NCBI GenBank assembly: GCA_022072445.1
Contig: JAJVHV010000002.1
Location: 1-64,000, forward strand
Length of the DNA: 64,000 nt
Source of the DNA: Phycisphaerae bacterium
GTDB taxonomy: Bacteria > Planctomycetota > Phycisphaerae > UBA1845 > Fen-1342
Direction: 5' to 3'
The position numbers and the translations under genes were made by a program. The notes under the pieces were generated by a model, which was not told the origin of the DNA, made no database searches, and was given only the letters and a program-made list of their open reading frames with translations. Shown here in pieces: positions 21,337 to 23,168 of the stretch. Position 1 is the stretch's first letter. Each line of letters opens with the position of its first letter.

Positions 21337-22686
21337 ATGGGGCACGAAGTTGTCATCGTGGGTGGCGGGTTCGGCGGGCTGTACGCGGCGCAGTCGCTGC
21401 GGCGGGCGCCCGTGCGCGTGACGCTGGTCGATCGGCGGAATTTCCACCTGTTCCAGCCGCTGCTGTACCAGGTGGCGATCGGCGGGCTCTCGCCGGCCAA
21501 CGTGGCGGCGCCGCTGCGTGCCATCCTCAAGAAGCAGGCGAACGCGCGCGTGCTGCTGGCCGAGGTGGTCGGCGTCGCCGCGCGGCGCCGAGTGGTGATC
21601 CTGCGCGACGGCGAGATCGGGTTTGACACGTTGATCCTGGCGGCGGGGGCGCGGCACCACTACTTCGGGCATGACGCGTGGGAGCGCGACGCGCCGGGCT
21701 TGAAGACGATCGAGGACGCCACGGAAATTCGCCGGCGGATCCTGCTGGCGTTCGAGCGCGCCGAGCGGCTCAGAGATCCGGTGGAACTCGAGGCGACGCT
21801 GACGTTCGTCATCGTCGGCGGCGGGCCGACGGGTGTCGAGCTGGCGGGCGCCATCGCGGAGACGGCCCGCGGCACGCTGCGCCGCGATTTCCGGGCGATC
21901 GATCCGTCGCGGGCGCGCATTCGGCTGGTGGAAGCAGGCGATCGCATTCTGGCGGGGTTTCCGCCGGAGCTCTCCACCCGCGCCGCGGACGCACTCCGGC
22001 GGCTGGGCGTCGGTGTTGAGACCGGGACGTCGGTCGCGGACGTGACGGCGGAGTCAGTCCTGCTTCGGACGGGCGACGGCGGCGAGCGGCGCGTCGCGGC
22101 GCGAACCGTGCTGTGGGCGGCGGGGGTGGCGGCGTCGCCGCTGGCGCGGGCCTTGGCCGAGGAGACGGGCGTGTCGCTCGATCGGGCCGGGCGAGTCGTC
22201 GTCGGGCCGGATCTGACGGTGCCCGGCTATCCGGAGATTTTCGTGATCGGCGACATGGCGCACGTGGTCGGCGCCGACCGGCAGCCGCTGCCCGGTGTCG
22301 CGACCGTGGCGATGCAGCAGGGGCGGTACGTAGCGCGGCGGATTGCGGAGCGGCTGCGGCAGCGCGAAAGCGGGGCGGCGACGGATGTGTCTACCGAGAC
22401 GGGCGGGACGCTCGCCGGGCAGGCGGCCGCCGCAGGCGCGTTTCGCTATCGCGACCCGGGCATCATGGCGACGATCGGGCGCGCCGCGGCGGTGGCTCGG
22501 ATCGGGCGATTTCAGTTCTCGGGTTACCCGGCCTGGCTGCTGTGGCTGTTCGTGCACCTGGTGCACCTGATCGAGTTTCAGAATCGCCTGCTGGTGCTGA
22601 TTCAGTGGGCGTGGAATTATTTCACGCGGAACCGGGCGGCACGGCTGATTACGGGGGAGGAACGGCGTGGGAGCGGGAAGACGTGA
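21337..22686 (+). CDS. ndh: Type II NADH dehydrogenase (NDH-2)
   Basis: This 449-residue flavoprotein passes electrons from NADH to quinone without pumping protons. It has two Rossmann nucleotide sites: VIVGGGFGG (6-14, FAD) and VIVGGGPTGVE (158-168, NADH). The FVIGDMAH motif comes before the FAD end. A hydrophobic C-terminal region (YPAWLLWLFVHLVHLIEF) is typical of membrane-attached NDH-2. Length and order fit the family. The gene ends before a cluster of hairpin repeats. Confidence 0.9.
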   Translation: MGHEVVIVGGGFGGLYAAQSLRRAPVRVTLVDRRNFHLFQPLLYQVAIGGLSPANVAAPLRAILKKQANARVLLAEVVGVAARRRVVILRDGEIGFDTLILAAGARHHYFGHDAWERDAPGLKTIEDATEIRRRILLAFERAERLRDPVELEATLTFVIVGGGPTGVELAGAIAETARGTLRRDFRAIDPSRARIRLVEAGDRILAGFPPELSTRAADALRRLGVGVETGTSVADVTAESVLLRTGDGGERRVAARTVLWAAGVAASPLARALAEETGVSLDRAGRVVVGPDLTVPGYPEIFVIGDMAHVVGADRQPLPGVATVAMQQGRYVARRIAERLRQRESGAATDVSTETGGTLAGQAAAAGAFRYRDPGIMATIGRAAAVARIGRFQFSGYPAWLLWLFVHLVHLIEFQNRLLVLIQWAWNYFTRNRAARLITGEERRGSGKT

Positions 22687-22722
22687 GAGCGTGAAGTGCG
22701 AGAATCCCCATTGTCTATGCGG

Positions 22723-22805
22723 GTGCGAGAATCCCTTCTCGCACCAGCGTGGAAGGATTCTCGCACCAGCGTGGCAGGACCGGCGGCACAGCCGAGGGCG
22801 GCTGT
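22723..22805. repeat. Palindromic and direct repeats after ndh; possible terminator
   Basis: GTGCGAGAA and TTCTCGCAC (22723-22731 and 22736-22744) form a perfect 9-bp hairpin with a 4-base loop. TTCTCGCACCAGCGTGG is repeated directly at 22736-22752 and 22758-22774. A third hairpin, ACAGCCG-AGGG-CGGCTGT, lies at 22788-22805 and recurs at 46957-46976. The cluster sits between the convergent ndh gene and the small ORF on the minus strand, so it may also end transcription. Confidence 0.7.
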
Positions 22806-22814
22806 CCCACATGG

Positions 22815-23069
22815 CTACCTGAGCATCTGCCAGGCGATGGTCGCGACGAGCATCAGCACCTGCGCCAGGAGAATCGCGTAGGCGGCGAGGCCCCACGCGC
22901 GTTGCGGCCCGCTGACGGCGGAGTGGGCCGCGATCAGCGTCGCGGGTACGCCGAGAAGCATGACGCTCGGACCGAGCGGCGAAAGGGGGTGGCCTCAGCA
23001 GAAGACCTGGCTGAGTGTCATGCCCGCGGCGGGCGTGAAGGAGATCAGTACAGCCAGTTTGCCCGACAT
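22815..23069 (-). CDS. Small membrane protein ORF with one in-frame UGA (candidate selenoprotein or nonsense pseudogene)
   Basis: From ATG 23069 (AGGAG eight bases upstream) the frame runs 24 codons to TGA at 22995-22997, then continues open in the same frame for 59 more codons to TAG at 22815. Reading the UGA as one residue gives 84 residues: MSGKLAVLISFTPAAG, then MTLSQVFC-x-GHPLSPLGP, then two hydrophobic helices (about 35-50 and 62-82). Third codon positions are strongly G/C on both sides of the UGA, as in real genes here. The unknown residue follows a cysteine. It could be selenocysteine, or a Trp codon (TGG) mutated to a stop. It lies 99 bp downstream of the thiolase gene on the same strand. 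I do not recognise the family. Confidence 0.5.
22964..22978 (-). promoter_or_regulatory. SECIS-like hairpin downstream of the in-frame UGA
   Basis: On the transcribed strand CGCTCG-GTC-CGAGCG folds into six perfect pairs with a GUC loop (or five pairs with loop GGUCC). The stem begins 16 bases and the loop 22 bases after the UGA. Known bacterial SECIS elements lie just 3' of the UGA and carry a G at the start of the apical loop; the E. coli fdhF loop is also GGUC. A conserved bulged U is not obvious. Chance hairpins are common in GC-rich DNA. Confidence 0.3.
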
Positions 23070-23168
23070 CGACGGTTCTCCTGATGGTGCGCTTTCGTCA
23101 GCGCGTCTCGCCAGCGCCGCAGACGGTCCACGGCCGGCGGCGCGCGGCGGTCGGCACGCAAGTGCGGC

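Follow-up and report, generated by a model that had tools for sequence, protein, structure and literature searches.

The 64,000 nucleotides of Phycisphaerae DNA analyzed here (contig JAJVHV010000002.1, positions 1 to 64,000; the window) contain a small minus-strand reading frame that is crossed by a single in-frame UGA, which raises the question of whether this codon is read as selenocysteine (Sec) or is a nonsense mutation. A sequence-only reading had put the gene forward as a candidate new selenoprotein, and this proposal is supported by the homologs, the sel genes, and the conserved hairpin described below.

The UGA-containing frame and its homologs

The frame was recovered from the sequence and its translation as it had been described, with an ATG at 23069, 24 codons, a UGA (22995 to 22997) directly after a Cys codon (TGC), and 59 further residues ending in TAG at 22817 to 22815. 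With TGA translated as U, the coding sequence (22815 to 23069, minus strand) specifies a predicted 84-residue membrane selenoprotein, MSGKLAVLISFTPAAGMTLSQVFC-U-GHPLSPLGPSVMLLGVPATLIAAHSAVSGPQRAWGLAAYAILLAQVLMLVATIAWQMLR, for which homologs and purifying selection argue and in which the predicted Sec is residue 25 and adjoins Cys24. The ribosome-binding site attributed to the gene is the Shine-Dalgarno sequence AGGAG (23078 to 23082, minus strand), 8 nt 5′ of the ATG, and most relatives also carry a G-rich, Shine-Dalgarno-like sequence 5′ of their start. The G/C counts at third codon positions, which had been made by hand, are exact (20 of 24 codons before the UGA and 54 of 60 after it). The upstream neighbor is a thiolase gene of the same orientation (24413 to 23169), and downstream is a convergent gene (21337 to 22686) encoding a 449-residue product, which by the look of its sequence we take to be a type II NADH dehydrogenase. 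A palindrome, GGTGCGAGAAGGGATTCTCGCACC (22722 to 22745), is located just 3′ of the stop codon with partial repeats nearby (about 22690 to 22790), and contig C35 of the genome carries two more exact copies 190 bases apart; it is possibly a small dispersed repeat or a terminator.

When the 84-residue query was searched against 114 genomes of the order, a long series of matches was obtained, each with exactly one in-frame TGA. Family members were counted as distinct UGA loci scoring above 24 bits when a profile was run against all fetched loci; this gave 58 distinct UGA homologs from 41 of the 114 genomes and from other Planctomycetota, and the UGA occupies the identical codon in 58/58. The usual motif around Sec is [FY]-C-U-G-[HD]-P-L-x-x-L-G, with most extracted members reading [FY]CUGHP[LM]xx[LV]G, and the start codon is 21 to 25 codons 5′ of Sec in most members. 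Cys directly precedes Sec in 56 of the 58 (the exceptions are L138 and L062), and the residues after Sec are more variable, being GHP, GDP, GDW, or rarely others. One genome, G012, carries two tandem UGA copies (L115:15590-16214, plus strand), one with CUVPP in place of CUGHP. The members fall into three size classes, namely, proteins of about 50 to 55 residues with two helices, proteins of about 80 to 90 residues with three helices, and longer proteins with an extra N-terminal hydrophobic segment. A Pirellulaceae member (L075:3672-4619, plus strand) has about 250 further residues after the membrane part, resembling a secreted-type domain.

At the position after VFC in the query, where homologs had been expected to be informative, the family has 58 Sec (UGA) and one Cys, and Trp was found in none of these members. 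The sole Cys member, in genome G029 (L027:1105-1482, plus strand), immediately precedes a UGA copy and has TGC in place of TGA. In this paralog, CTCGGT of the hairpin described below is replaced by ATCGGA, a loss that is expected because the hairpin is no longer needed with TGC. Its C-terminal tail is rich in His and Asp (YHDHKHGHG...HDHDHDHEQEQ), which suggests metal handling. Most selenoprotein families have more Cys homologs than one. Pirellulaceae proteins with the string YFCGHPLE (L063, L068, L071, and L072) were considered as non-UGA homologs and rejected; they have about 500 residues and a single Cys, carry the string within an N-terminal hydrophobic segment, are presumably of the MotA/TolQ/ExbB type by the look of their sequence, and probably resemble the family by chance. 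Past the UGA, conserved residues persist throughout the family, and dN is lower than dS in 6/6 close pairs (e.g., 0.03 versus 0.25 and 0.14 versus 0.29); these sequence comparisons indicate purifying selection on the part of the gene that follows the UGA.

The downstream hairpin and the decoding of the UGA

The hairpin that had been noted after the UGA is present in the sequence as a 6-bp stem with its loop 21 to 22 nt past the UGA. The fold stability of the single sequence is not unusual (z = 0.47; 133 of 200 shuffles give an equally or more stable fold), so the hairpin of one sequence alone proves nothing, and stability was dropped as evidence in favor of comparison. In an alignment of 56 members in ungapped register, the three column pairs that covary most strongly belong to a single nested helix, +17 to +23 pairing with +29 to +35 (0 being the U of the UGA), and standard pairs occupy 91.6% of cells, versus a shuffle mean of 78.2% (standard deviation, 1.2; maximum, 82.1%; 1,000 shuffles; uncorrected for relatedness) and no more than 54% in shifted registers. 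Pair 19-33 switches between T-A and C-G and pair 17-35 between G-C and C-G, and in L138 a one-codon deletion shifts the hairpin as a unit. Codon usage is frozen as well: CTC encodes the Leu under the stem in 50/50 cases, versus 145/545 Leu codons elsewhere in the same genes (p = 5e-27), and GGT encodes the loop Gly in 52/55, versus 47/349 Gly codons elsewhere (p = 6e-34). On this pairing, covariation, and codon conservation, the element in the window (22962 to 22980, minus strand; apical G-G-U-N-[C/U/A] at 22973 to 22969) is annotated as a bacterial SECIS (bSECIS) hairpin. The published bSECIS model has G in the first two loop positions, a loop 16 to 37 nt from the UGA, and a stem of 4 to 16 bp (PMC13188914), and the family hairpin conforms to it with a G-G-U loop, a distance of 21 to 22 nt, and a covarying 7-bp stem, which bears out the resemblance to bacterial SECIS elements that had been proposed. 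An Rfam search gave no match at gathering level.

All four genes that had been named for a genome check, selA, selB, selC, and selD, are present in the host genome (G000; 5.25 Mb, 97% complete). tRNA-Sec scores 67 bits over the Rfam cut-off and is confirmed by ARAGORN, and SelB, SelA, and SelD are matched at 273.7, 548, and 374.6 bits, respectively. The selD gene (L019, G000:C37:1133-2059) has its own in-frame UGA at the usual place (...ASCAG-U-AGKLPQAG...), so Sec decoding in another gene of this genome is certain. Within the order, selB is present in 39/41 member-bearing genomes versus 56/73 others, a co-occurrence that is only weakly informative (Fisher p = 0.016, uncorrected for relatedness). 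SelB over the cut-off was not found in the UGA-bearing genomes G012 (84% complete and fragmented) and G030, both of which are incomplete assemblies; in G030, a partial match of SelB size is present.

At Sec UGA codons in general, Sec insertion is in competition with termination, and some short product is therefore expected from this gene too. That the 24-residue peptide is mainly what is made, with the hairpin serving a regulatory role, or that the UGA is read in another way, by near-cognate Trp read-through or by genome-wide recoding, is nevertheless very improbable, since the loop, spacing, and stem of the hairpin all agree with the bSECIS model, no part of the Sec machinery is missing, and the Cys paralog lost the hairpin sequence exactly where UGA became TGC. 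Recoding across the genome is further contradicted by the fact that TGA is the ordinary stop of many genes, including several family members. A nonsense change from TGG to TGA, or a pair of short, unrelated ORFs that share a frame, would be conceivable for any lone sequence, UGA being one base off TGG, but it keeps next to no probability and is ruled out by conservation, given the identical UGA in 58 distinct homologs from many genera, the absence of Trp from a site where the sole sense codon is Cys, and the coding constraint that goes on past the UGA. On the comparative evidence, the UGA is almost certainly read as Sec and the proteins almost certainly constitute a new selenoprotein family. 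tRNA-Sec and SelB would decode the UGA at codon 25 as Sec, and the bSECIS hairpin, with its loop 21 to 22 nt downstream, would direct the insertion.

Distribution of the family

A family-derived DNA pattern with 18 fixed bases was scanned against 257 Gb of bacterial and archaeal genomes and gave 33 matches, 33/33 of which are family members. They are labeled as Planctomycetota or its classes, save three labeled "bacterium" and one labeled Limisphaerales (Verrucomicrobiota). The last of these (L088:457-723, plus strand) is on a 7.4-kb contig of a metagenome-assembled genome, and its label reflects either transfer or a contaminated bin. A looser pattern matched 12 of 392 Planctomycetota genomes, and 11 of these matches are clear members or close variants, the one in G392 not; reversed control patterns gave no match. 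In the class outside its own order, no member was found in 40 sampled genomes. The pattern requires the UGA and the hairpin codons, and the scan alone therefore cannot show that Cys forms are absent; their rarity rests on the profile searches and on a Cys-codon pattern run in the order. None of 27 members matched a curated Pfam or NCBIfam model beyond isolated chance hits. The CUG[HD]P motif does not occur in the 2026 table of 119 prokaryotic selenoprotein families (PMC13188914), older supplements, such as the planctomycete table of PMC4807772, being outside this comparison.

Predicted topology, function, and relation to known selenoproteins

AlphaFold2 predicts three helices, at residues 2 to 23, 32 to 52, and 57 to 83, with moderate confidence (mean pLDDT, 74.5; pTM, 0.46), so that the two helices proposed after the UGA are joined by one before it, and C24-U25 sits where predicted helix 1 ends, in the stretch leading to helix 2. 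Relative to Sec, Lys and Arg are enriched at positions -21 and +25 to +33, which correspond to the N terminus and the region after helix 2; by the positive-inside rule, these charges predict a periplasmic location for the Cys-Sec loop. From this charge distribution and the moderate-quality model, we infer an 84-residue inner-membrane protein with a cytoplasmic N terminus, in which Cys24-Sec25 and the following Gly-His-Pro would lie in the periplasmic loop between helices 1 and 2. A Foldseek search against the PDB gave no match below E = 6, and the best PDB sequence match was no better than E = 0.35.

The most likely function of the Cys-Sec pair, to which we give about an even chance, is that of a membrane-anchored, periplasmic redox center, in which Cys24-Sec25 would cycle between a selenolthiol and a selenenylsulfide. 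The Cys-Sec-Gly sequence is locally comparable, by analogy only, to the C-U-G end of animal thioredoxin reductase. The vicinal Cys is missing in 2/58 members (L138 and L062), which weakens an obligatory selenenylsulfide. Among 713 ORFs clustered around the loci, neighbors are common to very close relatives only, and the assignment of a function from the gene neighborhood was dropped for lack of conserved neighbors.

Alternatively, Cys-Sec-Gly-His may bind a soft metal or metalloid for export, uptake, or sensing, in the manner of MerT, MerF, or MerE, rather than carry out thiol-type redox chemistry, a possibility that we hold to be the less probable one. MerT has a Cys24-Cys25 pair in its first helix, and MerE has Cys28-x-Cys30-His31, all needed for Hg(II) transport (PMC5715351); Cys24-Sec25-Gly-His27 recalls both; hhalign puts the Cys pairs of MerF and MerT in register with Cys24-Sec25, but these alignments are not significant (P = 0.21 and 0.16, respectively), and that of MerE (P = 0.017) involves a nonequivalent helix. 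The His/Asp-rich tail of the G029 Cys paralog is of a metal-binding kind, the catalogued CU-motif selenoproteins SaoL, HgcA, and MbdU are linked to mercury or metals, and one upstream neighbor is an E1-E2 ATPase, whereas conserved metal-resistance neighbors do not occur at the loci. The resemblance to MerT, MerF, and MerE extends to small size, two or three helices, and a vicinal Cys pair near helix 1, with an adjacent His in MerE, and is a resemblance only: the new family differs in that it has no mer genes nearby, no significant sequence relation to these proteins, no second Cys pair, and no hit to MerT or related Pfam models. MerA over the cut-off was found in 0/114 genomes of the order, and a classical mercury-uptake route there would therefore be without its reductase. 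With no significant similarity and no MerA in the order, assignment of the family to the Mer-type mercury transporters was rejected, and such a transporter is a weak lead.

Beside the preferred redox-center reading, the near irreplaceability of Sec leads us to suggest, tentatively, that the periplasmic Cys-Sec pair may perform chemistry to which a Cys pair is poorly suited, such as selective metal(loid) handling or a very fast periplasmic selenol relay, and that the family may represent a new functional class without a soluble enzymatic domain.

In its decoding signals, the family is like other selenoproteins of the SelB/bSECIS type (119 families; PMC13188914), with which it shares an in-frame UGA, an N-G-U-N-N′ loop at 21 to 22 nt, the presence of SelA, SelB, SelC, and SelD, a Cys homolog, and a Cys beside Sec. 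Unlike the catalogued selenoproteins, it has the CUG[HD]P motif, which none of them shares, and no Pfam or NCBIfam match; its Sec is almost never replaced by Cys, and its members are proteins of 50 to 90 residues that are almost purely membrane embedded and have no thioredoxin fold. The vicinal Cys-Sec is shared with the CU-motif selenoproteins (SaoC, SaoL, HgcA, MbdU, and KCU-star), but the NCBIfam models of these proteins do not match the new family. The selenoprotein "putative mercuric transport protein" (PF02411) is also a small membrane selenoprotein, but it has a C/SxxU motif and MerT homology, whereas the new family has CU and no PF02411 match.

Standard annotation ends at the UGA, and the leftover 24-residue ORF is ignored by gene callers; the whole family is therefore invisible in databases. 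The short conserved motif and the hairpin together provide a simple search pattern for further members. The family is a widespread addition to the known selenoproteins, from uncultured Planctomycetota and in a membrane-embedded form without a thioredoxin fold that is unusual among catalogued selenoproteins, and because Cys versions are nearly absent, it is suited to asking what Sec does beyond Cys.
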